The position numbers and the translations under genes are program-made. The notes below the pieces were generated by a model, which worked only from the letters and a program-made list of their open reading frames with translations, ran no database searches and had not been told where the DNA came from. DNA of 64,000 nt from Burkholderiaceae bacterium (GTDB lineage Bacteria > Pseudomonadota > Gammaproteobacteria > Burkholderiales > Burkholderiaceae_C), in assembly GCA_023150375.1 (NCBI GenBank), contig JAKLLA010000012.1, positions 1 to 64,000 of the forward strand, in the 5' to 3' direction. Within the stretch, counting starts at the first letter, position 1. Every line of letters begins with the position of its first letter. Positions 17,067 to 37,653 of the stretch are shown one piece after another.

Positions 17067-17156
<90 letters not shown>

Positions 17157-17288
17157 GGATCGAGCTCGAGTGGCTGTCCCGGCTGGGATCCTTTCTTCGG
17201 TGCTGTCTGCACCCATCATCTCACCCATCAGCGCGGAAGCGTGCCCCTCGGTGTGGATACCCGGTCGGATACCGGCCAGCGACGGGCT

Positions 17289-17471
17289 TCACCCTTTCGG
17301 CTGGTCCTGGGGTGCTTCCGATTCAGCACTGAGCCGCTCGAACAGACGCGACAGCGACAGTTCGTTTTGCGCCGCAGCCGTCGCCATCGGGTCATCTTCC
17401 GGGATCACCAGGCCCAGACGGTCCTCGAGCATCTGCAGGCCGCGGGCCTTCTCGTTGTCTGGGTCGCTCAT
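17289..17471 (-). CDS. Small hypothetical protein
   Basis: This 60-residue acidic, helix-rich ORF starts MSDPDNEKARGLQMLEDRLG and contains NELSLSRLFERLSAE near the end. The composition (few stray Arg/Pro, amphipathic helices) differs from noise ORFs here. There is no clear Shine-Dalgarno sequence. I know no family for it, and the call rests on composition alone. Confidence 0.45.
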   Translation of the reverse strand: MSDPDNEKARGLQMLEDRLGLVIPEDDPMATAAAQNELSLSRLFERLSAESEAPQDQPKG

Positions 17472-18104
17472 GGGGGATGGCCTGGGGAGTTCGAAGGGCG
17501 GATGACTTGTGACCGGTGGACCTGACCTATGCCCCCCATCACAGGGGCCCCGCACCGCGGAACAACAGGTCTGCCCGCCGAGGGTATCGCCCGGCCACAC
17601 AGGAGGCAATCTCCTTCCGTGAACTCTCGGCACATCACGCAATGTTGCGGCAATATGCATCCCACTGATTCGCGGGCTTGGACGCCTCGCGCCCGCCGGT
17701 CGACAATGATCTGCCGTCGCTCGGCGGCCTGGGGTTGGAAGCCCAGGTCAGGACCCGCCTTGCCCCAGCCCCCTCGCATGAGGCTGGCGCCGTCCTCAAT
17801 GCCACCAGGTCCAACATGTCCAGCGCCTTCGCTGCATCCTCTGCGCCTATCCCGTCGCCCACTCGCTTGCAGTGGCACGCCGACATCGGCCCGTCCTCCA
17901 CTACGACGGCCTCACGGCCGACCAGGTCTACGCCCTGGACCGGCTGCTTCCCAGCGACCAAAGCGAGACGCCTGGGGCGTGCGTAGAGGCCGCAGGCACG
18001 CTTTTCGAGGTGCGAGCCACCATCGGCACCATCGCATCAGGCCGTGACGGCATCACCAACCCCGAGCAGCTACGCCATCTCCTGTCGCGACCTGGTTTCA
18101 GCCA
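17472..18104. other. Stretch without an intact gene at the left edge of the defence island
   Basis: No intact gene is convincing here. On the plus strand two adjacent frames have protein-like composition: DNDLPSLGGLGLEAQVRTRL near 17690-17870, then HYDGLTADQVYALDRLLP near 17890-17950. Together they could be one frameshifted coding remnant of unknown origin. The downstream end runs antisense into the hsdR scar. This looks like a recombination junction. Confidence 0.35.
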
Positions 18105-18194
18105 GCGGGCGTCGCTGTGGACGGCGCTCTCGGCCCGGTGTGCGGCCTCGAAGACCATGCCCCACTCGGCCTGGAGGAAGGCGAAGTTGCTCAT
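18105..18194 (-). pseudogene. hsdR: Truncated hsdR: N-terminal 30 codons of a type I restriction subunit
   Basis: From ATG 18194 the minus strand encodes MSNFAFLQAEWGMVFEAA and then HRAESAVHSDAR. This closely resembles the start of many type I restriction HsdR proteins (recalled consensus MSNFAFLQAEWPxxFEAAxxAE...DPR). After SDAR the similarity ends abruptly and the frame continues as WLKPGRDRRW, unrelated sequence, for 58 more codons. The 1000-residue helicase/nuclease body is gone. The scar is the downstream end of a lost hsd locus whose hsdS tail is at 21386-21460. Confidence 0.65.
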
Positions 18195-18254
18195 CTTGTG
18201 GGTTCGCTGATTCGTTCTTGGCTGGCCTGCTTCTGGTGACAGGTCTTGGCGGGT

Positions 18255-19382
18255 CTAGGTGTAGCGCACCACCTCATGCGTCTCGCTGGCCAGCAGGCGC
18301 AGCAGACCGGGATGGACGAACAGCTTCTCCTTGCCCACCTCGGTGGGTGTCAGCACACCCAGCTCGGCCAGCGCATGAAGGTAGCGCGACGCAGCCTGGC
18401 GCTGCGCGATGCCGCGCTCCACGAGATTGGCGATTCGGCAATACGGCTGCTCGAACACCACGTCGACCAGTTCGCGGCTGTAGACCTTGGGGGCTCGCTC
18501 GCGCACATGCTGGGCCGTGTGGTCGGCCAGGGCGCGGATGGCCAGAATCTTGGCGGTCGTCCACTGGGCGGTTTCTTCCACGCCCTGCAGCATGAACCGC
18601 AGCCAGGGCTCCCAACCGGCCTGACCGCCGGTCTGCCCACCGGTCTGCGTTACCTCGCGCAGCAGCCGGTAGTAGTCGGACTTGCGGCGCAGGATGGCGC
18701 GGCTGAGGTACAGGATGGGCAGGTCCAGCAGGCCCGCCTGCAGCAGGAACAGCAGGTTCAGCACCCGGCCCGTGCGGCCGTTGCCGTCGACGAAGGGGTG
18801 GATGGCCTCGAACTGGTAGTGCGCCGCCGCCATGCGCACCAGCGGGTCCACGTCGGTGGCCTCGTGCAGGAAGCGCTCCCAGTCGGCCAGCAGGCCGCGC
18901 AGCACCGCCTCGCCCTGGGGCGGGGTGTAGACCACCTCGCCACTGCGGTCGTTGACCAGCTGGGTGCCCGGCGTGCGGCGCACGTCCAGCGCCACGCCCT
19001 TGATTTGCCGGCACACCTCCACCGCCGTGGCGGTGCTGAGCGGCCGTTCGCGCAGCGAGGCCGCGCCCCAGTACAGCGCGCCGCGGTAGCGCAGCGCTTC
19101 CTTGGTGGCGGGGTCGGCCTGCTGCTCCGCGCCGCCCGCGTGCTGGAACAGCCGGTCGGCCGTGGTGACGATGTTCTCGATTTCCGAACTGTCCCGCGCC
19201 TCCAGCATCGGCAGCGTGTTGACCAGCATCGCCGGGTTGGGCATCAGCGCCGCCGCCTGGTTCAGCGCCGCCAGCGCGGCCCGGGCCGGAATGCAGGCCT
19301 TCAGCACCGCCCGCGTCTCCAGCACCTCGGCCGCCGGAACGGGCGGCAGGTCGTTGAAGGGGCGGTCCGGTTGCCAGCTCAT
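18255..19382 (-). CDS. Fic family protein (AMPylase-type) with C-terminal winged helix
   Basis: This 375-residue Fic enzyme transfers AMP (or another nucleotide) to hydroxyl side chains of target proteins. The active-site motif HPFVDGNGRTGR is complete at 195-206. An inhibitory motif SSEIEN at 65-70 marks class II Fic proteins, whose N-terminal helix blocks the ATP site. A C-terminal winged-helix-like region (about 300-365, ERGIAQRQAASRYLHALAELGVL) could bind DNA. A short tandem QTGGQTGGQ occurs near 246. Fic genes often ride between hsdS and hsdR, as seems to be the case here. A strong palindrome upstream may be an operator. The target is unknown. Confidence 0.92.
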   Translation of the reverse strand: MSWQPDRPFNDLPPVPAAEVLETRAVLKACIPARAALAALNQAAALMPNPAMLVNTLPMLEARDSSEIENIVTTADRLFQHAGGAEQQADPATKEALRYRGALYWGAASLRERPLSTATAVEVCRQIKGVALDVRRTPGTQLVNDRSGEVVYTPPQGEAVLRGLLADWERFLHEATDVDPLVRMAAAHYQFEAIHPFVDGNGRTGRVLNLLFLLQAGLLDLPILYLSRAILRRKSDYYRLLREVTQTGGQTGGQAGWEPWLRFMLQGVEETAQWTTAKILAIRALADHTAQHVRERAPKVYSRELVDVVFEQPYCRIANLVERGIAQRQAASRYLHALAELGVLTPTEVGKEKLFVHPGLLRLLASETHEVVRYT

Positions 19383-19420
19383 GATGACCTTTCAGCGTTT
19401 GGGCAATACGTCCTCACCTT

Positions 19421-19484
19421 ATGTCGCTGGCAGCGACATGTCCATCACTCGTGTCGATGTTTTGGCGTTTGGGCGACATGAGTG
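19421..19484 (-). promoter_or_regulatory. Operator-like palindromes upstream of fic
   Basis: A perfect 19-bp palindrome with one central base (ATGTCGCTG G CAGCGACAT, 19421-19439) lies 39 bases before the fic start. A second, imperfect inverted repeat follows (CACTCGTGTCG 19446-19456 / CGACATGAGTG 19474-19484, 10 of 11 positions matching). All four half-sites share GTCG/CGAC. The spacing suggests a cooperative repressor site, possibly for the Fic protein's own winged helix. Confidence 0.6.
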
Positions 19485-19497
19485 ACTACCCTCCTGC

Positions 19498-20088
19498 CTA
19501 AGGCGCCACGCCGCCTCGAGCAATGACCTTCTCGACGGCCTGGGCGATCAGCGGCGCCACGCCCCGCAGTCCGTCCAGCGTCAGGACTCCGCATTTGTAC
19601 ATGTCGTACCAGGACTGACGCCAGCGGATGATGCGCTCGCCATCGCGCAACTTCAGGCGCTTTAAGGTGAACTCCGCCTTGGCTCGCATGGCGTCAGGCA
19701 CCGCGTCGGTGACGCGCATCTGCAGCGAGGGCAGCAGGATCTCGAACCAGCCGGGTTGCACCTCGAACGGGTCCAGCACCGTGTCGTCGGCAGTCTTCTT
19801 CGATGAATTCAAGATGCCTGACGCAAACCGGTAGTTGCCCCAGTCGTAGGCCAGATGCCGGTGGTTCTTGTAGCTCAGGTAGTGATCCACCGTGCCTCCG
19901 GTGGGGTCGAGCATGGCGGCATAGCCGCAGAGCCCGCCAAAGCCCGCGCTCAGGTCTGCCGTGAAGTCGTTCCAGTACGCAGGGGGACGCTGGGTCGACG
20001 TGGGGTTGTCCTTCAACCACCGCTTGCCCGGTTGCCCAGCCTTCTTTTCAAACTGGGTGGGCTTCGGAACTTTGGCCACGCGAATCAT
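19498..20088 (-). CDS. HNH-type nuclease, partner of the AAA ATPase (Septu PtuB-like)
   Basis: This 196-residue protein contains an HNH-like core: TVDHY at 66-70, then YDWGNYRFAS and ILNSSKK (His69, Asn85 and Asn94 as candidate catalytic or structural residues). It resembles PtuB of Septu and the HNH partner of retron-linked ATPases, which cleave nucleic acid when the ATPase is triggered by phage. The zinc-binding Cys pairs of many HNH proteins are missing, with only LCGYA at the first position. The start ATG overlaps the stop of the ATPase gene (ATGA), so the two are one operon. Assignment to Septu is by architecture rather than close similarity. Confidence 0.7.
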   Translation of the reverse strand: MIRVAKVPKPTQFEKKAGQPGKRWLKDNPTSTQRPPAYWNDFTADLSAGFGGLCGYAAMLDPTGGTVDHYLSYKNHRHLAYDWGNYRFASGILNSSKKTADDTVLDPFEVQPGWFEILLPSLQMRVTDAVPDAMRAKAEFTLKRLKLRDGERIIRWRQSWYDMYKCGVLTLDGLRGVAPLIAQAVEKVIARGGVAP

Positions 20089-21347
20089 GTGGCGCCTCCA
20101 CCCGCACCCTTGATGGCCTTCGTCGTCACCAGCCAGCGCGGCCAGAACGGGTCGCCGGCAGGCAGCAGCCGCTGCAGCGCGGCGTGCACCGCCTTGCGCG
20201 TGCCAAGGCCAGGCAGGTGCGAGCGCTCGCCCCGCATCAGCGTCTCAGCCGCCTCGATGGCTTGTTCGGCCTGCACCGAACGCGCCTGCTCCAGGCCAAA
20301 GGTTTCCGACACCAGCCAGCTCGTGGCGTCGCCCTGCGTGGCCCAGCCGCCCTGCTCGGCCACCACATGGCCGTCCTGCAGTGACAGGTGAATCAGGTCA
20401 TCGCGTTCGACATCGAACATCGGCTCCAGCGACGCGGTCACCAGCGGCGAATGGGTCGCCACCAGCATCTGCGGCTCGTGCCCGCCACGGCCCTGCAGCT
20501 TTTCGATGGCCGCCAGCAAGCTGGGCAGCACGGTGCGCTGCCAGCGTGGGTGGAGATGGGTTTCCGGTTCGTCAAAGAGGATGACGACGCGATTCTCCGG
20601 CTGCTTGCCCAGCAGCTTGGCCGCCGTGCGGTGCTCGTGCCAGGCCCACACCAGGAAGTAGGCCAGTGCCAGCATGCGCCGCACGCCGGCGGACGCCAGC
20701 GCGACAGGGATGGACTGCGAGCCCACCAGCAGCGTGGGCCGGTCGCGCCCCTCGCCGATGTACAGCCGCTGCGGCGGCCCGACGCGCAGCCGCTCGCTGG
20801 GCGGCGAAACGGCCTGCAGCACCGCTTCCAGCGCCTCGAACTGGGGTTTGCGGCCCTCTTGCCAGTTGATCCAGTCGCGCTCCAGGCCTTCGCACACCCG
20901 ACGGCCGTCCATGTCCAGGCCGTTCCACACGTCAGCGGCACCGAAGTGGTAGGCCGCCGGGCGGTCGGGGTCGGTGCGCCAGTAGTTGCGCGCCGGGTCC
21001 CACACCGAGAAGCCACCGTCGATGCGGATGTAGATCACGATGCCCGGCATCGTGGGGCGGCTGGCGGGCAGGGGCCACGAGGCATCCGCGCGCCGGTAGG
21101 TGGATACCACCGGGGTCGCAGCCCTGGACTTGCCCTTCACCAGGTATTCGATGGTGGCCTTCTTGCTGCTCGGCGCAGGCAGCGCCACCGGCCCGGCCCA
21201 GGTGCGCGTCAAGGCCCACCAGGCCAAGTCCAGCAAGAAGCTCTTGCCCAGCCCGTTGTCGCCCGCGATCAGGTTGATGCGCTCGGCCCAGTCGATCTGC
21301 AGCGTGGGTGCCAGCCCCACCTGGGTGAGTTTCAAGAACTTCAACAT
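20085..21347 (-). CDS. AAA family ATPase, Septu PtuA-like
   Basis: This 420-residue SMC/ABC-type ATPase has Walker A GDNGLGKS (29-36), an ABC-signature-like LASAGVRRMLALAY (218-230), Walker B VVILFDEPETHLHP (254-267) and an H-loop ATHSPLVTASLEP. The size, single-domain layout and downstream HNH partner match defence ATPases of the PtuA/retron type, which hold a nuclease in check. It starts 39 bases after the hsdS tail scar and so occupies a typical cargo position within a type I restriction locus. It is not a RecF or OLD protein, because the Toprim domain is absent. Confidence 0.78.
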   Translation of the reverse strand: MLKFLKLTQVGLAPTLQIDWAERINLIAGDNGLGKSFLLDLAWWALTRTWAGPVALPAPSSKKATIEYLVKGKSRAATPVVSTYRRADASWPLPASRPTMPGIVIYIRIDGGFSVWDPARNYWRTDPDRPAAYHFGAADVWNGLDMDGRRVCEGLERDWINWQEGRKPQFEALEAVLQAVSPPSERLRVGPPQRLYIGEGRDRPTLLVGSQSIPVALASAGVRRMLALAYFLVWAWHEHRTAAKLLGKQPENRVVILFDEPETHLHPRWQRTVLPSLLAAIEKLQGRGGHEPQMLVATHSPLVTASLEPMFDVERDDLIHLSLQDGHVVAEQGGWATQGDATSWLVSETFGLEQARSVQAEQAIEAAETLMRGERSHLPGLGTRKAVHAALQRLLPAGDPFWPRWLVTTKAIKGAGGGAT

Positions 21348-21385
21348 GACCCCATGCCTCCAGTGGGTGGATTGTGACGCCGCAT

Positions 21386-21460
21386 TCAGAGCTCGCCGTG
21401 GAAGGCGCGGTGTTGGAGGGAGGCGAACATTCGAGATGTCTCCTCATGCTGAGCAGCCAT
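21386..21460 (-). pseudogene. hsdS: C-terminal scar of hsdS (type I specificity subunit)
   Basis: The minus strand encodes MFASLQHRAFHGEL followed by TGA (21386-21388), preceded in frame by AAQHEETSR. LFASLQHRAFRGEL-STOP is the recurrent C-terminus of HsdS proteins, recalled from the family. No recognition domain remains upstream; within 100 bases the capW gene ends. With the hsdR N-terminus at 18105-18194 it shows that the ATPase, HNH and fic genes sit where cargo sits between hsdS and hsdR. Confidence 0.65.
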
Positions 21461-21543
21461 CAACTTCCTGGTTGCGGGGCGGTGTCCACCCTGAAGTGCC
21501 ACCAGCTTAGCCGGCAGATACGGTGGGATTCAGGGCGAGGACG

Positions 21544-22458
21544 CTACGAAATGGGCGTTTGGGCCAGGACCTTCTCCACCTGTGATTTGTCCTTGAGCAC
21601 CACCTGCTGACTCTCGGGGTGCTCTGACAGGTCGACGTGAAGCCCCAGATGCCGCAGCACGTAGAACATCAGCGCCTCGCGGCATGACATCCGAGCCTCA
21701 CCGTCCACCATGCCGTAGTCGACCTCCAGCGCGCGACGGTGCGAGGGCGACAGCTTGGGATTGGGAACTAGCACGAGTTCGGTCAGCGTATTCCATGCGG
21801 TATCGCCCACCGAGCCGGGGCCAGAGGGCTCATCCAGCTGAACATCGTTCATCCGAGCGATGACGAAGTCCCGGAACTCGGCTCGGGAGTCGCAGTAGGC
21901 GCGCACATGCCACCGAAATCCGTCGTGCGCCAAGGCATGTGGGGTCAGTCTGCGTTCTGAAGGCTCCGGGCGCGACATGGACTGGTATTGCACGCGAACG
22001 CCACGCCCCTCGCGGATGGCGCGCAGCAGCGGCACCAGCGTGTCCGCAAGCACGGCACGACCCGGGCTGGGCACGAACGCCATCGGCGGCCGCCAGCCGA
22101 GGAAAGTTGCCTCTGCCGTGAGCAGCCCCGCTTCGGCGGCCAGCAGTTCGCTGAGATAGTGCGAAGAGTTGGTGCTCGGAAACAGTGGTACGAACTGGCT
22201 GCCACTGACGTAGACCCGTGCACTGCGGTCGTACGTCAGGTTGGCGGGGGCCAGTTCGGTGTACCGCGCGATGTCCAGCGACGCCTGCGGCACCGAGATG
22301 CCAAAGAAGCCGATGAGGTCCGAGCGGTTCAGCCGGCCATCCCACCGCAGGCGGAAGTCGATGAACGCCAGGCGACGGTCCTGCCCCCAGCGCGACACAG
22401 CTCGAGGCTCTGGGGTGGGCACCGGCGTCGCGGGTGGTGCGGCGGGGGGTGTTCGCAT
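21544..22458 (-). CDS. CapW/BrxR-like transcriptional repressor with WYL domain
   Basis: The 304-residue protein has an N-terminal winged helix (RLAFIDFRLRWDGRLNRSDLIGFFGISVPQASLDI, about 29-63). YTELAPANLTYDRSARVY follows, and a WYL domain runs at about 145-235 (VQYQSMSRPEPSERRLTPHALAHDGFRWHVRAY). This order and the QAS-DI-Y spacing match CapW/BrxR repressors, which control CBASS, BREX and other phage defence loci and are relieved by a ligand bound to WYL. It is divergent from jetABCD across 171 bases. An inverted repeat between the -35 and -10 boxes is the likely binding site. The link to Wadjet control is inference from position. Confidence 0.85.
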   Translation of the reverse strand: MRTPPAAPPATPVPTPEPRAVSRWGQDRRLAFIDFRLRWDGRLNRSDLIGFFGISVPQASLDIARYTELAPANLTYDRSARVYVSGSQFVPLFPSTNSSHYLSELLAAEAGLLTAEATFLGWRPPMAFVPSPGRAVLADTLVPLLRAIREGRGVRVQYQSMSRPEPSERRLTPHALAHDGFRWHVRAYCDSRAEFRDFVIARMNDVQLDEPSGPGSVGDTAWNTLTELVLVPNPKLSPSHRRALEVDYGMVDGEARMSCREALMFYVLRHLGLHVDLSEHPESQQVVLKDKSQVEKVLAQTPIS

Positions 22459-22468
22459 GGGTTTGATT

Positions 22469-22519
22469 GTTGCACACGTCTATGTAGTAGACGAATATAA
22501 AAACTATGCCCATAATGGG
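22469..22519 (+). promoter_or_regulatory. Promoter and operator of the Wadjet operon
   Basis: In an A/T-rich island, TTGCAC (22469-22474) is followed after 17 bases by GAATAT (22492-22497) or after 20 bases by TATAAA (22495-22500). Between them is a perfect inverted repeat CGTCTA-TGTAG-TAGACG (22476-22492). A smaller palindrome CCCATAATGGG is at 22509-22519. A repressor bound to the larger repeat would block RNA polymerase. The divergent CapW-like gene starts at 22458, so the same site could autoregulate it. Confidence 0.6.
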
Positions 22520-22552
22520 GTCGCCAACCGACAAATCCAAGCCGGGGAGACG

Positions 22553-22633
22553 ATGTTGGAGCAACTCTCGATTCCAATGCCATGCGGCCCACACCGGCGC
22601 CGTGTTCACGTCCACCAAGGGAGTCTGGCGTGA
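22553..22633 (+). CDS. Short leader ORF coupled to jetA
   Basis: ATG 22553 is preceded at 5 bases by GGGGAGA and opens a 26-codon frame (MLEQLSIPMPCGPHRRRVHV, then HQGSLA). Its TGA (22631-22633) overlaps the jetA GTG start by two bases (GTGA). The ribosome-binding site is better than that of many full genes in the window. It may be a translational-coupling leader or a small protein. I recognise no homologue. Confidence 0.5.
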   Translation: MLEQLSIPMPCGPHRRRVHVHQGSLA

Positions 22634-24093
22634 AGGTGCTCCGCACCTCGGAGGCCTACCAAGCGCTGCGTGAAGGCCGCGTGTGGAAGCTGCTGGCCGC
22701 CGACCTCGGCCCGGTGGTGCTGGCCATGCTGAACGCCCTCTTCATGGAAGAGGACAAGGTGCTGCCTGGGTCCGTCCTGCTCGAGCGGCTCACGCGGCAC
22801 ATCGACGCCCTGCGCGGACAGGGGCACGTACTTCCTCAGGCGGCACAGGCCTACACCGCGGACTGGCTGACCCAAGGCTGGCTGACCCGGCGGTTTCCGG
22901 CGGGTGCGTCCGAGGAGGTCTATGAGCTCACCGCCGATGCGGCCACTGCGTTGCGCCTGGTCAACGGCCTTCAGCGCCCCCGCACGGCGGCGACCGAGAG
23001 CCGACTGGCCAACGTGATGCAGCAGGTGATACGCCTCGCCGAGGAGACGGACGCCAACCCCCAGACGCGCCTTGCCGCGCTGATGGCCGAGCGCGAGCGC
23101 ATCGACCAGGAAATCGCTACGGTTCAACGCGGAGGCGTGAAGACCCTGCCGGAGGACCGCGCCGTTGAGCGCGCTCGAGAGGTCATCGAGCTCGCCCAGG
23201 ACCTGGCGGCTGACTTCCGCAATGTGCGCGACGCCTTCGACCGGCTCAATCGCGACTTGCGTCAGAGCCTGATGGAGAACGACGGCAGCCGCGGCGACGT
23301 GCTGGAGCACCTGTTCGCCGGCGTGGACCTGATTGCAGAGAGCGACCCCGGACGCACCTTCACGGCGTTCTGGCGCCTGCTGACCGACGGCGAGCAGTCC
23401 TTTGCGCTGACCGAGGCCCTGGATGCCGTCACCAGCCGCGGCTTCGCGCGTCGCCTGGATGCACGTGAGCGCCGCTTCCTGCAGTCGTTGACCGCGACGC
23501 TGATGGCCGAAGGTGGTGAGGTGCACGAGGTGCTGCAGCAGTTCGCACGCAGCCTCAAGAGCTTCGTGCAAAGTCGCGAGTTCCAGGAGCAGCGCCGCCT
23601 GCATGCGCTGCTGAAACAGGCCCAGCTGGCCGCCCTGGCCGCGAAGGACCATGTCCGCGCCAACGAGCCCATGGGATTCGACCTGTCGCTGACAAGCAGC
23701 CGCATCCGCTCGGTCGCGCAGTGGGGGCTGTATGACCCGAACCTGCGGGTGCCCGATGCCAGCATGGACGACGCGGCGCCGTCCGACCTGAGCATCGACG
23801 ACGTCGAAGAACTGGTGCGGCACTCCGAAATTGACTTCCGCACGCTGCGTGGGCACATCCAGGCTGTGCTCCGAGACACGTCGCAGGCCTCCATCGCCGA
23901 CGTGCTTGCGCGCTTCCCGGCCGAACAGGGCTTCGGCTCGGTGGTGGGCTATGTGGCGCTCGGCGCCAGGCACGGCGAAGTGACCGAGGCCATGCAGCAC
24001 GTCAGCTGGCAGGGCAAGGACGGCCAGCACCGCAGTGCCCGCGTCCCGGCCATCTATTTCCTGAGGGAGAGCTTCCTTGATTCAAGCCACTGA
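22630..24093 (+). CDS. jetA: Wadjet JetA (DUF3375), kleisin-like subunit
   Basis: The 487-residue protein matches the DUF3375 family that forms JetA in type I Wadjet, the kleisin-like subunit that bridges the JetC SMC heads. Visible features are the N-terminal VLRTSEAYQALREGRVWKLL, a helical middle (about 130-330) and the C-terminal FGSVVGYVALG region. The GTG at 22630 is chosen over the upstream in-frame codon because GGGAG lies 6 bases before it and it overlaps the leader's stop. jetA overlaps jetB by 17 bases. The complex extrudes DNA loops and cuts closed circular plasmids of limited size. Confidence 0.92.
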   Translation: MKVLRTSEAYQALREGRVWKLLAADLGPVVLAMLNALFMEEDKVLPGSVLLERLTRHIDALRGQGHVLPQAAQAYTADWLTQGWLTRRFPAGASEEVYELTADAATALRLVNGLQRPRTAATESRLANVMQQVIRLAEETDANPQTRLAALMAERERIDQEIATVQRGGVKTLPEDRAVERAREVIELAQDLAADFRNVRDAFDRLNRDLRQSLMENDGSRGDVLEHLFAGVDLIAESDPGRTFTAFWRLLTDGEQSFALTEALDAVTSRGFARRLDARERRFLQSLTATLMAEGGEVHEVLQQFARSLKSFVQSREFQEQRRLHALLKQAQLAALAAKDHVRANEPMGFDLSLTSSRIRSVAQWGLYDPNLRVPDASMDDAAPSDLSIDDVEELVRHSEIDFRTLRGHIQAVLRDTSQASIADVLARFPAEQGFGSVVGYVALGARHGEVTEAMQHVSWQGKDGQHRSARVPAIYFLRESFLDSSH

Positions 24094-24838
24094 CACCGTG
24101 GACGAGGACCCCGTCGACCAGGTGGAGCCTGCCCCGCCCAGTGATGCAGGCGTGACCTTCGCCGGCGATACCGGTCAGTTGCCGCTCGAGACCCGTCGGG
24201 CGCTCGTCCAGCTGCTGCTCGGCCCCTCCGTCGATGGCCATCGCCAGTCCAAGCTGTGGCTCGTGCTCCTGCGCGACGAGGCCATCCTGCGCTCCCGGCT
24301 GCACGACCTGTTCCTCGACCTCGTCGTCGACCGGGAGCAGAAGGTCGCCTTCACCCGCCAGGTGGTTGCCGATGACATCGACGCGCCCGTCCTGCTGCGC
24401 CGTGCCTCGCTCACCTTCCTGGAGTCGGCGCTGGTCCTGTTCCTGCGCCAACGCCTGACGCAAGCGGACGCCCAGGGCGAGCGTGCGGTGGTCTCCAAGA
24501 CCGAGGTGGTCGAGCACTTGCGGGTCTTCGAGCGCGACAAGAACGTCGACCACGCTCGCTTCGAACGGCAGATGGAGAACGCGCTCGAGAAGGCCAAGAA
24601 GCTGAGCCTGCTGCACAAGCTGCGTGGGGGCGATGAGCGCTTCGAGATTTCGCCGACGCTCAAGCTCTTGTTTCCGGCCGAGGAGATACAGGCCCTGGCG
24701 CAGTCGTACACGGCCATCGCCCAGGCTGGGACGCAAGGCTCAGGCGACACCCTTGACCAAGCTGGCATGGCCAGCAACCCGGCGGTCCAAGCGGCCGCGT
24801 CCGAGGCCGACGACCGTGACGAGGAGGCCCTCGAGTGA
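24077..24838 (+). CDS. jetB: Wadjet JetB (DUF4194), KITE-like subunit
   Basis: The 253-residue protein fits the DUF4194 family, the winged-helix KITE subunit (MukE-like) of Wadjet. It has paired winged-helix stretches (RRALVQLLLGPSVDGHRQSKLW and LRVFERDKNVDHARFERQME) and an Ala/Asp/Glu-rich C-terminal tail of about 40 residues. The start is TTG 24077, inside the jetA end, with GGGAGA upstream. The stop shares bases with the GTG start of jetC (GTGA). The position between a DUF3375 gene and a MukB-like gene makes the call firm. Confidence 0.9.
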   Translation: MIQATDTVDEDPVDQVEPAPPSDAGVTFAGDTGQLPLETRRALVQLLLGPSVDGHRQSKLWLVLLRDEAILRSRLHDLFLDLVVDREQKVAFTRQVVADDIDAPVLLRRASLTFLESALVLFLRQRLTQADAQGERAVVSKTEVVEHLRVFERDKNVDHARFERQMENALEKAKKLSLLHKLRGGDERFEISPTLKLLFPAEEIQALAQSYTAIAQAGTQGSGDTLDQAGMASNPAVQAAASEADDRDEEALE

Positions 24839-27800
24839 ACACGCTCATGACCCCTCAGAGCCTTTTCCCGATGGATGCCTCGATGGACGAGCCGCCCGTC
24901 GACACGGGCGAGCGCGACCAGATGAAGCTCAGGCAGATGCAGCTCTTCAACTGGGGCACCTTCCAGGGGCTGCTGCGCCTGAACATCGCCGAGCAGGGCT
25001 ATCTGTTCGTCGGTCCGTCTGGTTCCGGCAAGTCGACCGTCCTGGATGGCCATGCTTCGGTGATGACCCCGCCGAAGTGGGTCGACTTCAATGTGGCAGC
25101 CCGAGAAGCCGAGAAGCGCTCGAAGGACCGCAACCTGCTGACCTATGTGCGCGGTGCCTGGGCCCAGCAGACCACCGACGCCGGCGAATACGCCTCCCAG
25201 TTCCTGCGCGCCGACACCACCTGGTCGGCCGTGGCGGAGACCTACCGTGACGGTACCGGGCGCGTCGTGGTGCTGGCCCAGGTGCTCTGGGTGCGCGGCA
25301 AGTCGACCAGCCTGTCCGACGTGAAGCGGCTCTACCTGGTGCTCGAACGCGAACTGGACCTGCAGGAGCTGCAGTTCTTCCCCGAGCACGACTTCGACGT
25401 CCGACGCTTCAAGTTCGACCTGCCCGATGCCTTCGTCCGGGATGAGTTCAGCGCTTACCAGGAGCGCTTCCGGCGGCTGCTCGGCATCGAGAGCGAACGG
25501 GCCCTGCGCCTGCTGCACAAGACCCAGGCCGCCAAGAACCTGGGTGACCTGAACGAGTTCATGCGCGACTTCATGCTGGAGCCGCCGGAGACCTTCAAGC
25601 TGGCCGAGAAGCTCGTGGACCAGTTCGCCGAGCTGAACGAGGCCCACCGTGCGGTGGTCTCAGCCCGCCTGCAAATCGAGACGCTCAAGCCGGCCCAGGA
25701 GGAGGCGCAGGCGCTGGACAAGGCGCGCCTAACCAAGAGCGAACTCGACGAGTTGTCCGCCGGCGTGGACAAATACAAGGAGCAGACGCGCAAGCGTCTG
25801 CTCGATGAAGCCGTCGCCGCACAACAGACCGACCTCGCCGGCATGGCCCAGGAAGCAGCCCGCCTGGACGGCGTCGAGAAGAACGAGTTTGCGAAGCTGC
25901 GCTCGCTGCAGGACCAGCGCAGCGGCATGGGCGGCAGTCTGCTGGAGGACCTTTCTGCCCAGCTGGAGGCGGCCGAGACCACCCGGCACAAGCGGGTTGC
26001 CAAGCGCGAGACGGTTCGCGCCGCGTGCGACACCCTGGGCTGGGCGCCGCCCGACAGCGCGGTGTGGTTCACCCAGCGCAAGGACGCGGCCCGTACCGCC
26101 CTGCTCGAAGCCGATGCCAAGCGGGAGGAGCAGGCGGACAGGACCTACGAGCTGCGCAAACAGTCCGACGAGGCCGCGGACAAGTTCCAGAAAGTCGTCA
26201 CCGAGGTCAAGTCCCTCGAACGCCAGCGCTCGAGCATCCCGGCCCGAATGCTGGCGGTGCGCGAGCGCATGGCCCACGCGCTGGGCATCGCCGAAGAGCG
26301 CCTGCCGTTCGCTGGCGAGCTCATCGAGGTCCGCAAGGACGAGGCCCCATGGCGCGGTGCCATCGAGCGGGTGCTCAACGGCTTCGCGCAATCGCTGCTG
26401 GTGGAGGACCGCCACTACGCACAGGTCGCGGCCTACTTGAACGAGACGAACGTCGGTGAGCGGGTCGTCTACTTCCGGACGATGTCCCAGACCTCCGCGC
26501 CGCGCGGCCCGGGCCAGAACTCCCTGATTCTCAAGCTCAACTTCGCCAACGCGCCTCAGGCCGATTGGGTCAAGGAAGAACTCAAGACACACTTCGACTA
26601 CGACTGCGCGGACACGGTCCATGCCTTCCGTGCAGCCCCCCGCGCCATCACCCGCGAAGGCCAGGTCAAGCACAACAGCACCCGTCACGAGAAGAACGAC
26701 CGCCACCGTGTCGACGACCCGAGCCGCTGGGTGCTGGGCTTCGACAACGCCGCCAAGCTTGCCCACTTCAAGGAGGAAGCTCACCGGCTGTCTCAGCAGA
26801 TTGAAGAGCTGCGCAAGGCGCTCGAGACCGCCAAGGCCGAAGAGTCCACCGAGCGTGAACGCTTGAAGGCCTACACCCAGTTGGCGAACACCGAGTGGGA
26901 CGAGGTCGACGTGAACTCGGCCATCGGCACCATCGACGCCTTGAAGGCTCGCATCCAGCGTGAGAAGGATGAACGCCCGGACCTGGCCCGGCTGGACGAT
27001 GACATCAAGGCGCAGGAGGCCACGCACGACCGGGCCCGGCGCGCCCACAGCAACTACCTGGGGCAGGTATCCGCAGAACAAAGCAAGCTCCAGGAGTTGC
27101 AGCGACGCATCGAATCGCTGCGCATTGAGTTCTTGATGGTCGAGCTCACGCCCTTCCAGCGGCAGGGCCTCGACGAGCGCTACGCCCGCTACCTGCCGGA
27201 CATGAGCTGGGAGACGCTCGACAACGCCACCACGCAGGTGGTTCGTGGCATCAATGCCGACGAGCGTGAGGTGAGCAGTCGCATCAAGGACCTGGAGAAC
27301 AGCATCGAGCGCCGCCTGGCGGATTTCGTGCGACTGTGGCCGGCCGACTCGGGTGGACTGGACCCCAGGATGGCCAGTGCCCCGGACTTCTTTGCCAAGT
27401 TGGCGCGCCTGGAAACGGACGGGCTGCCGAAGTACGAGCAGCGCTTCCTGGAGCTCTTGCGCGACCAGAGCGCCCAGAACCTGACCATGCTGCAAACGCA
27501 GCTGGACCAGGAGCGCAAGGCGATTCGGGACCGCATGTCCCTCGTCAACGAGAGCCTGGAAACGGCACCGTTCGGGCCCGGCACGCACCTGGTCATCGAG
27601 ACCCAGGAGAAGCTGCTGGAGGACGTCGTCGCCTTCAAGCAAACCCTGCGCAGCGCCCTCAGCAACATGCTGACGACCAACGCGAAGGAGGCCGAGCAGC
27701 GCTTCGAGGTCATCAGCGGCCTGGTCAAGCGGCTGGCCAGCCAGGAGACGGCCGACAAGAACTGGCGTGCGCTGGTCCTGGATGTCCGCCAGCACGTGGA

Positions 27801-28233
27801 GTTCGTGGCCCGCGAGCTCAACGAATTCAACAAGGAGGTCGAGGTCTACCGCAGCGGTGCAGGCAAGTCCGGCGGTCAGCGACAGAAGCTGGCGGCGACC
27901 TGCCTGGCGGCGGCGCTGCGCTATCAGCTCGGTGGCCAGGACCGGGCGCTGCCGCGCTTCTCGACGGTCTTCCTCGACGAAGCCTTCGACAAGGCCGACG
28001 CCGAGTTCACGACCATGGCCATGAACATCTTCAAGACCTTTGGATTCCAGATGGTCGTCGCCACGCCGCTGAAGTCCGTGATGACGCTTGAGCCCTTCAT
28101 CGGCGGGGCCTGCTTCATCCACATCAAGGACCGCAAGACCTCCTGCGCCATTCCCATCGACTACGACACCGAGGGCAAACGCCTCCTGTTGACCACGAGC
28201 ACCGACGATGTCGAAGAAGCTGCTGACGCCTGA
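24835..28233 (+). CDS. jetC: Wadjet JetC, SMC-like ATPase
   Basis: This 1132-residue SMC-like motor has Walker A GPSGSGKST at 60-68, long coiled coils (about 265-480 and 640-900) flanking a hinge region near 500-640, an ABC signature KSGGQRQKLAA near 1013 and Walker B TVFLDEAFDKAD near 1042. It hydrolyses ATP to extrude DNA loops, and JetD is recruited to cut. The GTG at 24835 follows GAGGAGG and overlaps the end of jetB. The length is normal for the family. The last 26 bases overlap jetD. Confidence 0.94.
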   Translation: MNTLMTPQSLFPMDASMDEPPVDTGERDQMKLRQMQLFNWGTFQGLLRLNIAEQGYLFVGPSGSGKSTVLDGHASVMTPPKWVDFNVAAREAEKRSKDRNLLTYVRGAWAQQTTDAGEYASQFLRADTTWSAVAETYRDGTGRVVVLAQVLWVRGKSTSLSDVKRLYLVLERELDLQELQFFPEHDFDVRRFKFDLPDAFVRDEFSAYQERFRRLLGIESERALRLLHKTQAAKNLGDLNEFMRDFMLEPPETFKLAEKLVDQFAELNEAHRAVVSARLQIETLKPAQEEAQALDKARLTKSELDELSAGVDKYKEQTRKRLLDEAVAAQQTDLAGMAQEAARLDGVEKNEFAKLRSLQDQRSGMGGSLLEDLSAQLEAAETTRHKRVAKRETVRAACDTLGWAPPDSAVWFTQRKDAARTALLEADAKREEQADRTYELRKQSDEAADKFQKVVTEVKSLERQRSSIPARMLAVRERMAHALGIAEERLPFAGELIEVRKDEAPWRGAIERVLNGFAQSLLVEDRHYAQVAAYLNETNVGERVVYFRTMSQTSAPRGPGQNSLILKLNFANAPQADWVKEELKTHFDYDCADTVHAFRAAPRAITREGQVKHNSTRHEKNDRHRVDDPSRWVLGFDNAAKLAHFKEEAHRLSQQIEELRKALETAKAEESTERERLKAYTQLANTEWDEVDVNSAIGTIDALKARIQREKDERPDLARLDDDIKAQEATHDRARRAHSNYLGQVSAEQSKLQELQRRIESLRIEFLMVELTPFQRQGLDERYARYLPDMSWETLDNATTQVVRGINADEREVSSRIKDLENSIERRLADFVRLWPADSGGLDPRMASAPDFFAKLARLETDGLPKYEQRFLELLRDQSAQNLTMLQTQLDQERKAIRDRMSLVNESLETAPFGPGTHLVIETQEKLLEDVVAFKQTLRSALSNMLTTNAKEAEQRFEVISGLVKRLASQETADKNWRALVLDVRQHVEFVARELNEFNKEVEVYRSGAGKSGGQRQKLAATCLAAALRYQLGGQDRALPRFSTVFLDEAFDKADAEFTTMAMNIFKTFGFQMVVATPLKSVMTLEPFIGGACFIHIKDRKTSCAIPIDYDTEGKRLLLTTSTDDVEEAADA

Positions 28234-29398
28234 GCAGGTCAAGGACTGGCTCATACGCCGGTACAACAACCAGCATCGCGCCTGGCTCGAAGGCGGTGGT
28301 GACTGGCCCTTGGAAGTGAGCCTCGGTGTTCCGACGGAAGCGGATTTCACCGCGGACATCTCGGCCGTGCGCCATTGGGTCGACGCCTGGGCGAACTGGC
28401 GGGGTGCCGGCGAACTGCGCCAGGAGCCGCGCAAGTACCTGCGCCTTGGCTCGCAGACGCTGCCCTCCTCGGTCGTGTTGCCCGGTCCTGACGAAGTGGC
28501 CGCCTGGTGCGGGCAGGAGCGGCGCTGGCGGCGGGCGGCCCAGCGGCACGCCGACCTGGTGTCACGCTGGCCGCAGTTCCAGGAGCGCCGAGGGTTGGCA
28601 CGCTACTTCGACGTGCTGGCCGACTATGCCGAGGCGGACTACGCTCGGCTCCTGACGGCCTTGGCCTGGATGCTCGACCACCCCGCGTCGGGTCTCTACG
28701 TGCGGCAGCTGCCCCTCGAGGGGGTGGACACCAAGTGGCTGGAAAAGCGTCGGGGCCTCATCGTGGACTTGCTGGGCTTGCTGCGTGGTGGCGAGGTCGA
28801 GACGGACTTCTACGCGGCCTGCGGCCTGGCTCGCACGCCCCACCGGGTGCGCATGCGAGTCCTGTGTCCTGCCCTACGCGCGCAGGTCGGAGGCCTGAAG
28901 GACATCGAGGCGCCGGTGGAGGAACTGGCGGCTCTCCAGCTGGCGCCGCAGGTGCTGCTGATGGTCGAAAACCAGGAAACAGGTGTGGCGCTCCCCGACA
29001 TGACGGGTGTGGTGGCCTTCATGCGCCTGGGCGCTGCGGTCGCGACGCTGGGTACGATTCCATGGCTCCAGGCGTGCCCTGCGGTCTATTGGGGCGACAT
29101 CGACACGCATGGTCTCGCCATCCTCGCGCGCGCTCGCCAAGTCTTGCCTTTGACCCGGTCCGTGATGATGGACGTGGCCACGCTCGAGCGGTATGCCGCG
29201 CTCACGGTCCAGGAGCCAGCTCAGTACCCCGACGCTGAGCTGGCAGAACTCACCGCGGATGAGCGCGAAGTGTTCGACGGCCTGCGTTCGGGTCGCTGGG
29301 GAGCGAAGGTGCGTCTCGAGCAGGAACGCATCACGTGGCCCGATGCGTTGGAGGCACTGCTGTCCGTCGTCGAGCGGGCGAGACGGCAATGGTCGTGA
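28208..29398 (+). CDS. jetD: Wadjet JetD, Toprim-type nuclease (DUF3322/DUF2220)
   Basis: The 396-residue protein has an N-terminal arm domain (DUF3322; LLTPEQVKDWLIRRYNN to about 190) and a C-terminal Toprim-like DUF2220 domain. The metal-binding residues are visible as VENQET (Glu254) and YWGDIDTHG (Asp297 and Asp299). JetD cleaves plasmid DNA after JetABC has enclosed it. The ATG overlaps jetC by 26 bases, so the four jet genes form one overlapping operon. All catalytic residues I can check are present, and I see no frameshift, so the system is likely active. Confidence 0.93.
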   Translation: MSKKLLTPEQVKDWLIRRYNNQHRAWLEGGGDWPLEVSLGVPTEADFTADISAVRHWVDAWANWRGAGELRQEPRKYLRLGSQTLPSSVVLPGPDEVAAWCGQERRWRRAAQRHADLVSRWPQFQERRGLARYFDVLADYAEADYARLLTALAWMLDHPASGLYVRQLPLEGVDTKWLEKRRGLIVDLLGLLRGGEVETDFYAACGLARTPHRVRMRVLCPALRAQVGGLKDIEAPVEELAALQLAPQVLLMVENQETGVALPDMTGVVAFMRLGAAVATLGTIPWLQACPAVYWGDIDTHGLAILARARQVLPLTRSVMMDVATLERYAALTVQEPAQYPDAELAELTADEREVFDGLRSGRWGAKVRLEQERITWPDALEALLSVVERARRQWS

Positions 29399-29961
29399 GA
29401 TCGACCCGAGGCGCACGCCGCCCATCCTCTCGATGAGGAGGTGCCGTCCCTGAAGACGTGGCCACCAACGTCACTGCCGACCCGACGTCGAACGGCATGG
29501 ATGCGTTGCGCCGGACCTCCGCCCAAGTCACGATTTGCCTAACGGCACAGGCACCCGGCCAAAGGCCACGGCCGTGCCACGCGGTGCGCAATGCCGCCCG
29601 ACAGGCCTTGTCAAGGCAGGTGCGCCCCCCGATGCGGATGCCGAGCGTCCGCCCGAACCGGCCTTGCCGGGCACCTCGCGTCGCTCTCTGGATCAGGCGG
29701 TGAACCACCGCCAGCCTGTCGGCAGGCCCTTTCGTGGGCCGGGCATTGTGATCGGCAACAACTGCTGACATCTTCCGTGCGAACTTAACGGCGCTTGTGC
29801 ACGGGGCCGGTTTCCCCCTCCAAACCGGGGAGTGGCCGGGGAGGGGTGACCGCTAAGATGCCCTCGGTTTCCCTTGCTTATTCCAGCATCTCCATCGATC
29901 ACCTCAGGGCGGCGACATCGGTTCTAGACGTGTCGGGCTGTCCGGGGCAAGCACTCCAAAC
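29399..29961. other. Intergenic region between Wadjet and the exopolysaccharide operon
   Basis: No gene is supported in these 563 bases; the small open frames lack ribosome-binding sites and coding composition. A perfect hairpin CCGGTTT / AAACCGG with an 8-base loop is at 29807-29828, about 135 bases before epsD. It may be a terminator, an attenuator or an element of the eps promoter region. No convincing -35/-10 pair is visible, as is usual in GC-rich genomes. Confidence 0.5.
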
Positions 29962-30909
29962 ATGATGTCAACTCCGATTCAGTCTGCTTCGAAGTCCCGC
30001 CTGCGCCGTCATGCTGCGCGCTTCTCCCTGGGCGGTGTCGCGCTGGGCGTGGCGGTCCTGCTGTCCGCCTGCGGCGGTGGCGGCAAGGAAGGGGGGGCCA
30101 CGCAGGTGGCCGCCAAGGTGAACAAGGAGGAGATCTCGGTTCACCAGATCAACCACGTGCTGCAGGGTCAGCGCGGCATCAAGCCCGAGATGGTGCCGGC
30201 GGCGAGCAAGCGCATCCTCGACGGCCTGATCGATCAGGAGCTGGCGATCCAGCAGGCCGTGGAGCAGAAGCTGGACCGGGATCCGCGCGTCGTGTCTGCC
30301 ATCGAAGCCGCCCGGCGCGAGATCATCGCGCGCGCCTATGCCGATCGCGTCGCCGAGGGCGCCAGCAAGCCCACGCCCGAGGAAATCAGCCAGTACTACG
30401 CCAGCAAGCCGGCGCTGTTTGCCCAGCGTCGGATCTACGCGCTCAGCGAGTTCATGATCGAGGCGCCGGCCGATCAGCGCGAGGCGCTGGGTGCCAAGCT
30501 GCAGGGCGTGCGCAGCGCCGACGAACTGGGCAACGCCCTGCGTGCGGCCAACATCAAGTACGCGGTGCGCAACGTGACCCAGGCGCCCGAGAGCCTGCCC
30601 ATGCCGCTGCTGGACAGGCTGGCGCCGCTGAACGAGGGGCAGTCCCTGGTCATCGCGGTGCCCACCGGCCTGAACGTGATCATCGTGGCCGGCGCGAAGC
30701 CGGCGCCGGTGACCGAAGAGAAGGCCCGGCCGGCCATCGAGCAGTTCCTGCTCAACGAGCGCAAGCGCAAGCTGGTGTCCGAGGAGATCAAGCGGCTGCG
30801 TGCGGCGGCCCAGATCGAGTACAAGGGACAGTTCGCGAACGCACCCGAGGGCGCCGCCAGCGGTGTGGAGGCGCCTACCGTCGCGCCGACGCCGGCTGCC
30901 AGCCAGTGA
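29962..30909 (+). CDS. epsD: EpsD family peptidyl-prolyl cis-trans isomerase lipoprotein
   Basis: The 315-residue lipoprotein has a signal peptide and the lipobox LLSAC near residue 34, followed by a Gly-rich linker. A SurA-like N-terminal domain follows (AAKVNKEEISVHQINHVLQ, then DGLIDQELAIQQAVEQK), and the C-terminus is Pro/Ala-rich. EpsD accompanies exosortase-B exopolysaccharide loci, as in the Methylobacillus methanolan cluster, and is thought to assist export. It is the first gene of the eps run. Two tandem ATG codons (29962, 29965) are possible starts; neither has a good ribosome-binding site. Confidence 0.9.
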   Translation: MMSTPIQSASKSRLRRHAARFSLGGVALGVAVLLSACGGGGKEGGATQVAAKVNKEEISVHQINHVLQGQRGIKPEMVPAASKRILDGLIDQELAIQQAVEQKLDRDPRVVSAIEAARREIIARAYADRVAEGASKPTPEEISQYYASKPALFAQRRIYALSEFMIEAPADQREALGAKLQGVRSADELGNALRAANIKYAVRNVTQAPESLPMPLLDRLAPLNEGQSLVIAVPTGLNVIIVAGAKPAPVTEEKARPAIEQFLLNERKRKLVSEEIKRLRAAAQIEYKGQFANAPEGAASGVEAPTVAPTPAASQ

Positions 30910-30997
30910 TGCGCGTCGCGGGCCGCCTCGGCTGATACGGTTCGGGCCACGCGAAAGCGTGTGCCCGATTCTTTGCTTCCAACTGTCACTGCAACGC

Positions 30998-31846
30998 ATG
31001 AACTCCCGCAACGTCGACATGGTCCGGACCTCTCATCCCCTTCGCCTCGTGCTGATGGCCCTGTGCCTGCTGTGCGTTCTCGCGATGTGGCCGGGGCGCG
31101 CGCAGGCCCAGGATGTCAAGAAGGACTATGTGCTCGGTGCCGGTGACGTGGTGCGCATCAACGTCTACCAGAATCCGGACCTGACGCTCGAGACGCGCAT
31201 CAACGAATCGGGTGCCATCAGCTACCCGCTGCTGGGCCAGGTGGTGCTGGGCGGCCGCTCGGTGACGGAAGCGGAGCGCACCATTGCCGAGGGGCTGCTC
31301 CGCGGCAACTTTCTGCGCCAGCCGCAGGTGAGCATCCTGGTGATGCAGGTGCGCGGCAACCAGGTGAGCGTGCTCGGCATGGTGGGGCGGCCCGGCCGTT
31401 ATCCGCTCGAAGCGCCCGGCATGCGCATGAGCGAGCTGCTGGCCATCGCCGGCGGCGTGGCCCCGGGCGGTGCCGATGTGGTGACGCTGACCGGCCTGCG
31501 CGAAGGCAAGCCTTACCGTGTGGCCATGAACGTGGCCGCGATGTTCTCGGGCTCCACGGGCCTGCAGGATCCGGTGCTCGTCAACGGCGACACCCTCTAC
31601 GTGGACCGCCAGCCGCTGGTCTACATCTACGGCGAGGTGCAGCGGCCCGGCGCCATGCGCCTCGAGCGCGGCATGACCCTGATGCAGGCCCTGGCTGCCG
31701 GCGGCGGTCTCACCCAGCGTGGTACCGAAAAGGGCATCAAGGTGCATCGCCGTGACGCCTCCGGCGTGGTGATGGCCCTCGAACTCCCGATGACGTCCGC
31801 CCTGCAGGACGGCGACGTCGTTCGGGTGGCCGAGAGTCTGTTCTGA
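30998..31846 (+). CDS. epsE: Polysaccharide export protein EpsE (Wza-like)
   Basis: The 282-residue outer-membrane export protein has a signal peptide (LVLMALCLLCVLAMWPGRAQA) and a poly_export domain (YVLGAGDVVRINVYQNPDLTLETRINESG, about 41-130). SLBB domains follow (VSVLGMVGRPGRYPLEAPG and YIYGEVQRPGAMRLERGMT). It would form the channel through which the polymer leaves the cell. The ATG at 30998 and another at 31019 are both usable; I take the first. It lies 88 bases after epsD and 54 before epsF. Confidence 0.92.
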   Translation: MNSRNVDMVRTSHPLRLVLMALCLLCVLAMWPGRAQAQDVKKDYVLGAGDVVRINVYQNPDLTLETRINESGAISYPLLGQVVLGGRSVTEAERTIAEGLLRGNFLRQPQVSILVMQVRGNQVSVLGMVGRPGRYPLEAPGMRMSELLAIAGGVAPGGADVVTLTGLREGKPYRVAMNVAAMFSGSTGLQDPVLVNGDTLYVDRQPLVYIYGEVQRPGAMRLERGMTLMQALAAGGGLTQRGTEKGIKVHRRDASGVVMALELPMTSALQDGDVVRVAESLF

Positions 31847-31900
31847 CCCCTGCACGAGTCGCCCGGCCCCTTCTCCTTCCCGATTCAGAAAGCCCTGGCC

Positions 31901-33322: not shown

Positions 33323-33363
33323 CCGCTCGCCCGGCCATCCAGAAGACCCCTCAGGAGCCCAAC

Positions 33364-34287: not shown

Positions 34288-34396
34288 CCGTCCGCATCGC
34301 CGACGCCCCGATCGATCGTGCACCGGTTTCACGGCCCCCGTTGGCCTGCTTCGGGCAGCTGCGGGACCCACCGTGGCCACCCTGCCTGCATCGCTG

Positions 34397-35362: not shown

Positions 35363-36084
35363 GCAGCGCTACGTTTCCTTCTAGAGGACAGACCGAATCC
35401 ATGGTGAAGCACACGGCCACTGCAGCAGCGTTCGCGCTGGCTATGGCCTTGACGGCAGGTGCTGCACACTATGTCCGGCCTACTGTCTACTTGGCCGATA
35501 CAAGACCGGTCCTGAAGATCGAGCCCTCCCTCCCCCAATCGTTCGGCGGCTGGAGGCAGGTCCAAGTATCCGGAGGAGTGGTCAATCCTCAGGCTGCTGA
35601 CCTTCTGAATATCCTCTACTCCGAACTGATCAGCAGGACCTATGTGAACGAGCGGGGTGATCGGGTCATGCTCTCGATCGCCTACGGAAAGAATCAGAAC
35701 GACTCCTTTCAGGTCCATAAGCCTGAAATATGTTATCCGGCCCAGGGATTTCAGGTGAAGAGTAACACACCTGGATACCTGTCCACCTCGTTCGGGTACA
35801 TTCCGGTACGCCGCCTCGAGACCTTCTATGGCCATAACCGACCGGAGCCGGTGACGTACTGGACCACATTGGGTGATCAGGCGGTGGAGCCCGGACTGGA
35901 CAAGAAGATCAAGGAGATTCGGTACGCAATGAAAGGCTACATCGCCGATGGACTCCTGTTCAGGATCTCCACCGTCGATCCCGACAGTGAACGAGCGTTC
36001 GAGGTCCACAAGAGCTTTGTGGAGGCTCTCGTGGGAAGCCTTTCCCCTGCCGAGCGGAGAAGATTGGCAGGCCTTGCCGGATAA
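35359..36084 (+). CDS. epsI: EpsI family exosortase-associated protein
   Basis: The 241-residue protein has one N-terminal hydrophobic segment (about 22-40) and the EpsI domain signatures QSFGGWRQ, LLNILYSELISRTYV, MLSIAYGKNQN and HKPEICYPAQGFQV. EpsI accompanies exosortases and is fused to some of them; its role is not established. It overlaps xrtB by 4 bases and ends the conserved core before a 316-base gap. Confidence 0.92.
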   Translation: MSSATFPSRGQTESMVKHTATAAAFALAMALTAGAAHYVRPTVYLADTRPVLKIEPSLPQSFGGWRQVQVSGGVVNPQAADLLNILYSELISRTYVNERGDRVMLSIAYGKNQNDSFQVHKPEICYPAQGFQVKSNTPGYLSTSFGYIPVRRLETFYGHNRPEPVTYWTTLGDQAVEPGLDKKIKEIRYAMKGYIADGLLFRISTVDPDSERAFEVHKSFVEALVGSLSPAERRRLAGLAG

Positions 36085-37648: not shown

Positions 37649-37653
37649 GTGAA

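Follow-up and report, generated by a model that had tools for sequence, protein, structure and literature searches.

A 64,000-nucleotide stretch of a Burkholderiaceae bacterium genome (assembly GCA_023150375.1, contig JAKLLA010000012.1, positions 1 to 64,000; hereafter the window) carries three open defence genes, ptuA and ptuB of a Septu system and a fic gene, which are bracketed on the minus strand by the end of an hsdS gene and the beginning of an hsdR gene, the cut ends of a type I restriction-modification locus. Whole loci of this kind, with related cargo between hsdS and hsdR, were found in relatives of the block, and comparable stumps were found in other genomes. This suggests that type I loci gain, stack and shed defence cargo by one-sided recombination that leaves stumps behind, and that the block in the window is an orphan cassette produced by such joins, a reading that is considered probable by a moderate margin of confidence.

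Two hsd stumps around open cargo genes

The gene order, strand and frames given in a preliminary description of this DNA, with an HsdS tail, an ATPase, an HNH nuclease, a Fic protein and an HsdR head following one another on the minus strand, were confirmed (Table 1). Judged by sequence comparison, both scars are real. A model built from ten intact HsdR heads, with the window row left out, scored 60.1 bits (E 1.1e-17) at 18105-18194(-) over model positions 1-30, and a seven-row HsdS-tail model scored 31.5 bits (E 9.1e-9) at 21389-21433(-), while the best of ten shuffled controls reached 6.3 and 8.2 bits, respectively. In tblastn, the intact HsdR proteins of loci L013 (67% over 30 amino acids, E 6e-8) and L010 (65% over 34 amino acids, E 3e-8) both stop at 18105. 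PADLOC Specificity_I reaches its profile's last position on the HsdS scar (362-387 of 387, E 7.6e-6), NCBIfam PRK11448 matches the HsdR scar weakly over positions 3-31 (E 0.053), and Pfam matched neither. The scar peptides had been predicted to resemble HsdS and HsdR families, and they do so by model scores, tblastn and PADLOC Specificity_I. The span first assigned to the HsdS scar, 21386-21460, held in part: the tail is genuine at 21386-21430, and DNA homology to L004 (Aquabacterium lacunae) sets in at 21430 and extends without a break over both ptuA and ptuB (83.9% over 1932 columns), but beyond that point two other HsdS queries extend weakly by only 4-5 codons, to 21445, and the remainder is not recognisably hsdS.

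Chance matches or an assembly artefact, for which the shortness of the scars would speak, are refuted for practical purposes by scores far above the shuffles and by the correct order, strand and register; in addition, a second record, the contig L003 of a metagenome-assembled genome, equals the window at 100% over 16,092 bases, and its identical arrangement is evidence against an assembly slip. L003 may come from the same organism and was not counted as an independent case.

No complete hsdM, hsdS or hsdR was found at the locus by tblastn of the whole window with three HsdM, three HsdS and four HsdR queries at E up to 0.1. HsdM had no match in the window, HsdS only its stump, and HsdR the stump, a weak extension to 17976 and a match of 29% over 56 amino acids at 50299-50466 (E 0.005), which was taken as chance. 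Further HsdR remains downstream of the stump were considered and rejected, as four of five HsdR queries of the same class match the head only and end at 18105, the fifth, from L007, continuing weakly to 17976 (33% over 90, E 5e-4). A plasmid search with 17157-18300 gave no match.

In the same interval lies a small open reading frame (ORF) of a family with the pattern MLEDR.GLVIP.DDPMA.AAAQNELSL, found at 17289-17471(-) in the window and at 1444-1677(-) in L084. It overlaps the end of an hsdR on contig C1 of the source genome and recurs downstream of the HsdR stump. Both copies belong to this one genome among 200 family genomes, and none was found in plasmids, so that a general hsdR-linked gene was rejected.

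Table 1. Coordinates in the window of the cassette and its surroundings
Feature	Position	Strand	Basis and remarks
HsdS C-terminal stump	21386..21430	-	14 codons (MFASLQHRAFHGEL) and stop; weak match up to 5 codons further, to 21445
Leader, 38 bases, from hsdS stop to ptuA	21348..21385	-	Equal length in intact L004 and L008
PtuA, Septu AAA ATPase	20085..21347	-	PDLC00307 4.8e-165; L004 94% (tblastn)
PtuB, Septu HNH-type nuclease	19498..20088	-	PDLC00348 2.4e-67
SoFic-type Fic adenylyltransferase	18255..19382	-	NF046030 583.2 bits, cut-off 550; solved SoFic chains E ~1e-142
HsdR N-terminal stump	18105..18194	-	30 codons; 60.1 bits, model without window row; tblastn 6e-8, 3e-8
60-amino-acid ORF, possible third remnant (unproven)	17289..17471	-	70% over 53 amino acids to ORF overlapping end of a different hsdR, contig C1
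tRNA-Ser(tga), edge of variable site	17067..17156	+	ARAGORN; comparison with same-genus genomes
WYL-domain regulator	21544..22458	-	PF13280 3.1e-16; island also in G003
Wadjet JetABCD	22582..29398	+	PADLOC
JetA	22582..24093	+	PADLOC
JetB	24077..24838	+	PADLOC
JetC	24835..28233	+	PADLOC
JetD	28208..29398	+	PADLOC

Identity of the cargo

The three cargo genes, which had been called AAA ATPase, HNH nuclease and Fic and described as intact, all have open frames, and their names can be refined to Septu PtuA and PtuB (PADLOC) and SoFic (NCBIfam). PtuA (protein 1-411) matches the Septu-family ATPase model and the adjoining PtuB the HNH nuclease model, both over nearly the whole length, as in Septu type I; Pfam gave no match to PtuB up to E 1, and the Fic protein scores above the SoFic cut-off. 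The window pair differs from Septu type I in travelling with SoFic between hsd stumps, and no reverse transcriptase is among the genes identified beside ptuAB. Both proteins stay below the NCBIfam equivalog cut-offs for retron Ec78-type PtuAB (PtuA 46.4 of 500 bits, PtuB 17.9 of 150). A Walker A in PtuA, an HNH region in PtuB, and HPFxxGNGR with an inhibitory S...EN in Fic are presumably present, as read by eye, and support no claim here. In Septu systems, PtuA is the sensor of infection and keeps the PtuB nuclease under its control; Fic proteins add AMP to target proteins. Family membership predicts such functions for the cargo. Carriage of this PtuA by phages or plasmids was considered and rejected, the relatives there being five on plasmids at 42-43% and three on viral contigs at 41-46%.

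Between the window and L004, the NG86 method gave for ptuA nonsynonymous (dN) and synonymous (dS) distances of 0.036 and 0.536 (dN/dS ~0.07), and for ptuB 0.160 and 1.237 (dN/dS ~0.13, with dS above 1). These values are consistent with purifying selection on both genes over a path that is not divisible into parts before and after the loss. The earlier claim that the cargo is selected on its own therefore agrees with the data as far as selection goes, but these distances do not date the selection to the period that followed the loss.

Parent arrangement in relatives

The scan of species genomes for PtuA gave 232 stretches with a relative, the best 80 of which were kept as 79 loci, L003 included. 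An hsdR of the same class, the one class looked for in contigs that are often short, lies downstream of ptuB in ten of the 79 (L004, L007-L013, L019 and L020), and each of these belongs to the loci with an identity of about 70% or higher. The immediate upstream neighbour is hsdS in six of these ten (L004, L008, L009, L010, L012, which is cut by the contig start, and L020); L019 is cut inside ptuA. These cargo relatives bear out the statement that accessory genes ride between hsdS and hsdR, and in L004 the homology of the window block to hsdMS-ptuAB-hsdR is unbroken.

L013 is the only locus seen with ptuA, ptuB and fic in order before hsdR. There, an hsdS tail is joined to the first ~107 hsdM codons, and the hsdR frame is interrupted in a contig containing a run of N. 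The expectation of intact hsdMS-ATPase-HNH-fic-hsdR loci in related genomes was thus satisfied by halves: L013 has the three genes before hsdR, but hsdS is a stump there, and no locus seen combines an intact hsdS, all three cargo genes and hsdR. The gene order of the relatives, taken with L013, identifies the window block as cargo of a type I hsdS-hsdR interval.

Stumps in other loci

Stumps were also found in loci that keep their restriction genes, L007 and L011, where an old hsdS tail precedes ptuA and a different, intact hsdS lies further upstream. L007 has hsdM, hsdS and a 278-amino-acid gene first, after which the hsdS-tail stump leads into ptuA and ptuB; these are followed by another hsdS tail, which is broken, then by a nucleotidyltransferase and hsdR. 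In L011, hsdM and hsdS come before a nucleotidyltransferase set and a 38-amino-acid chimera, and ptuA, ptuB, a PIN gene and hsdR follow. The chimera, lying between two cargo sets, consists of hsdR codons 1-18 followed by an hsdS tail. Its hsdR part equals the hsdR of the same locus in 53 of 54 bases, the best of nine other intact heads reaching 41 of 54, and the sequence that hsdR shares with an hsdS tail where the two meet is limited to GCC. Since stumps form in L007 and L011 while the restriction system survives, a stump alone is no proof of a vanished system.

When compared with eight intact hsdS tails, every S stump was nearest to the tail of a near PtuA relative. The window stump is nearest to L004 (39 of 42 bases; next L010 and L008, 37), the L013 stump to L010 (35 of 42; next L012, 33), and the L007 stump to L020 (37 of 42; next 31), while the L011 stump, a weak case, is nearest to L020 (32 of 42; next its own hsdS, 30). 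In L007 the present hsdS is the least similar of all to the stump (23 of 42), which identifies that stump, at least in this locus, as the remaining end of an earlier hsdS whose place has been taken by another.

In L142 and L177 an hsdR-head stump lies between Fic and AlbA_2 cassettes and is followed by an hsdR head running up to the contig end, and the cassette orders are opposite, with Fic before AlbA_2 in L142 and AlbA_2 before Fic in L177. HsdR-head stumps of ~109 codons with nearly the same break occur in two genomes of different families (L141, 2286-2612; L178, 9246-9572), both adjoining another type I locus; perhaps they go back to a single old stump that travelled along with its neighbour. 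At L180 8386-9280 (G385:C5), hsdM codons 1-95 adjoin hsdR starting with codon 933, so that only the two ends are left of a complete type I locus. At L139 9248-9358(-) there is a solitary HsdR head of 37 codons, whose surroundings yielded no hsd, PtuAB or Fic gene.

The frequency of such stumps was surveyed with an HsdR-head model in 300 genomes of the order, in 12 of which 16 matches were obtained; surroundings were fetched for the 15 outside the window. Of the 16, seven are stumps (in the window, G273 and G347:C222, and twice each in G138 and G490), six continue into an hsdR body (one with a broken frame), and three at contig ends were dropped, leaving stumps as 7 of 13 decidable matches. Four stumps, those of the window, L142, L144 and L145, lie directly 3' of a Fic gene. 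As controls drawn from the same loci in this sample, an HsdM-head model gave 22 matches, ten inspected and twelve judged by frame length, with two broken (G385 and G372), and an HsdR C-terminal segment gave eight, with one broken and one undecided (1 of 7 decidable). For HsdR-head stumps, the Fisher p was 0.006 when HsdM heads were the reference and 0.005 when both controls were. A class sample of 369 genomes, overlapping the order sample by at least the source genome, added 13 HsdR-head matches, of which two are stumps (in G840 and, flanked by an AlbA_2 ATPase and Fic, in G633), ten have HsdR homology of ~500 codons or more, and one is at a contig end. No survey locus was at least 97% identical to a model locus. 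Dropped before counting, as undecidable or located at or near contig ends, were G347:C222:56, G371 and G347:C15 (order), G633:C3:15750 (class) and G333 (HsdR-tail control).

Stumps might also be kept for a function, if the hsdS tail and leader carry a promoter or translation-coupling signal for ptuA, so that losses stop there. The S side is indeed retained to ~80-100 bases before ptuA in both the window and L013. This explanation is nevertheless unlikely: a crude scan of the minus strand over 17150-22700 found no sigma-70-like site, the R-head stump is left unexplained, and ptuAB occurs without a recognisable S tail in L005, L006, L014-L016 and L045.

The tRNA-Ser site in the genus

The cassette lies beside an island of a WYL regulator and a complete Wadjet system, with JetA, JetB, JetC and JetD all matched by PADLOC, at a site whose apaH/tRNA-Ser flank is kept in 13 of 13 genus genomes, the source genome included. 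When flanks with apaH or tRNA-Ser on one side and eps genes on the other were compared, the site was found empty in G004, G005, G009 and G012, where the window-matching flanks are 0.4 to 1.4 kb apart versus 12.6 kb in the window. G003 has the WYL and Wadjet island (88.9% over 7820 columns) without the Septu-Fic block, in whose place, between tRNA-Ser and the island, a PIN toxin and a MazE-like antitoxin are found (L107, 1286-1944). The site in G006, G010 and G011 has other, partly annotated content; for G001, G002, G007 and G008 the comparison gave no clear arrangement. No PtuA was found at E 1e-60 in the 12 other genus genomes searched. Other type I loci of the source genome are on C1 (hsdM, hsdS, AlbA_2 ATPase, hsdR) and C14 (hsdM, GmrSD and an HsdR-like gene).

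Site-specific integration at tRNA-Ser was considered and rejected, as the tRNA 3' region is not repeated exactly over more than 10 bases anywhere in 17201-36000. No integrase is among the annotated genes, and no search aimed at integrases was made. Past the island, G+C drops from ~0.67 to 0.58-0.61 at 35000-40000, composition having been computed to 40 kb, and this part reads by eye as exopolysaccharide genes.

The preliminary description had taken the block for the remains of an hsd locus lost at this site, and recently. A full hsdM-hsdS-ptuAB-fic-hsdR locus would then have stood at tRNA-Ser, from which hsdM, the larger part of hsdS and the body of hsdR were removed by two deletions. Such a loss would fit the two clean stumps at the correct ends and the 60-amino-acid ORF downstream of the R stump, given its resemblance to an ORF overlapping the end of another hsdR in the same genome; joins of this type exist as well, from hsdM codon ~107 to the hsdS tail in L013 and from hsdM codon 95 to hsdR codon 933 in G385. 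However, two separate deletions are required, and the four empty sites, the PIN/antitoxin pair of G003 and the lack of PtuA at E 1e-60 in the 12 other genus genomes argue against it. Loss in place is considered less likely than not; neither it nor its recency is supported by the comparison. With modest confidence, it is more likely that the cassette arrived already trimmed than that it lost its parent genes here.

A proposed route by one-sided recombination

The exchange that the stumps suggest would proceed as follows. Cargo sits between hsdS and hsdR, and an incoming hsdM-hsdS set, or a further cassette, would be anchored at one end through its homology to conserved hsd genes while the other end joins illegitimately, at random, so that hsdMS is replaced or cargo is added. 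The old hsdS tail or hsdR head would stay attached to the older cargo, and repeated events would yield stacked cassettes with stumps between them. Joins that lose both hsd genes would produce an orphan cassette, such as the one beside the WYL and Wadjet island at tRNA-Ser.

Several points weigh against this route. Simple deletion explains the window taken alone equally well, no intermediate was found for the event in the window itself, and the 639 bases adjoining the R stump yielded nothing informative: of 49 relatives, one matched, weakly and at two short places. The hsdS tails comprise only 42 bases, which makes differences of 2 bases soft; the PtuAs of L007 and L011 are sisters and may share one event; and several comparison loci are metagenome assemblies. 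The survey model, with 11 rows, included the window row, the counts are small and uncorrected for kinship, and in the class sample alone stumps are 2 of 12 decidable matches, so that the stump excess rests on the order sample. When 300 genomes were surveyed for the S tail, 12 of them gave 12 matches, with only two orphan tails (the window and G138).

Known systems and biological meaning

Defence genes between hsdS and hsdR are already known. In the passages available, DarTG2 of the enteropathogenic Escherichia coli (EPEC) RptR island lies between these genes, a position termed a potential recombination hotspot (PMC12255303), as does TgvAB of Vibrio cholerae VPI-2, and RloF of Campylobacter jejuni is named as a gene embedded there (PMC11411939). 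The cargo position is the same as that deduced for the window; according to those passages, the type I genes are whole in these systems, whereas the window keeps only cut ends and its relatives show chimeric stumps between stacked cassettes. The deletion-decayed loci of G385 and L013 share partial hsd genes with the window, but no cargo of the searched kinds is left in G385 while that of the window is whole, and L013 keeps its hsdR while in the window the cargo is flanked by stumps on both sides, of 14 and 30 codons. Orphan hsd ends on cargo are not described in the passages seen of PMC12255303, PMC11411939, PMC9122601 and PMC12707154, and a full-text literature search, with subscription papers mostly outside its reach, returned no description of them; hsd stumps on cargo are apparently new within this literature.

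Entry and exit of defence genes at restriction loci are usually deduced from gene order alone, while stumps are physical joints. They suggest a one-sided, sloppy exchange of cargo and specificity genes, and that cargo can outlast its carrier restriction system. Short orphan HsdR heads and HsdS tails would also be a simple marker for unrecognised defence cassettes outside restriction loci. It is tentatively proposed, as a possibility short of an even chance, that the hsdS-hsdR interval is both a recorder and an exchange platform, in which each stump marks one past replacement of the specificity genes or the addition of one cassette, brought about by recombination that has homology at only one end. 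If this is true, stumps would give the order of a lineage's changes of restriction specificity and gains of defence, and they may act as short homology handles by which trimmed cassettes re-enter other type I loci.

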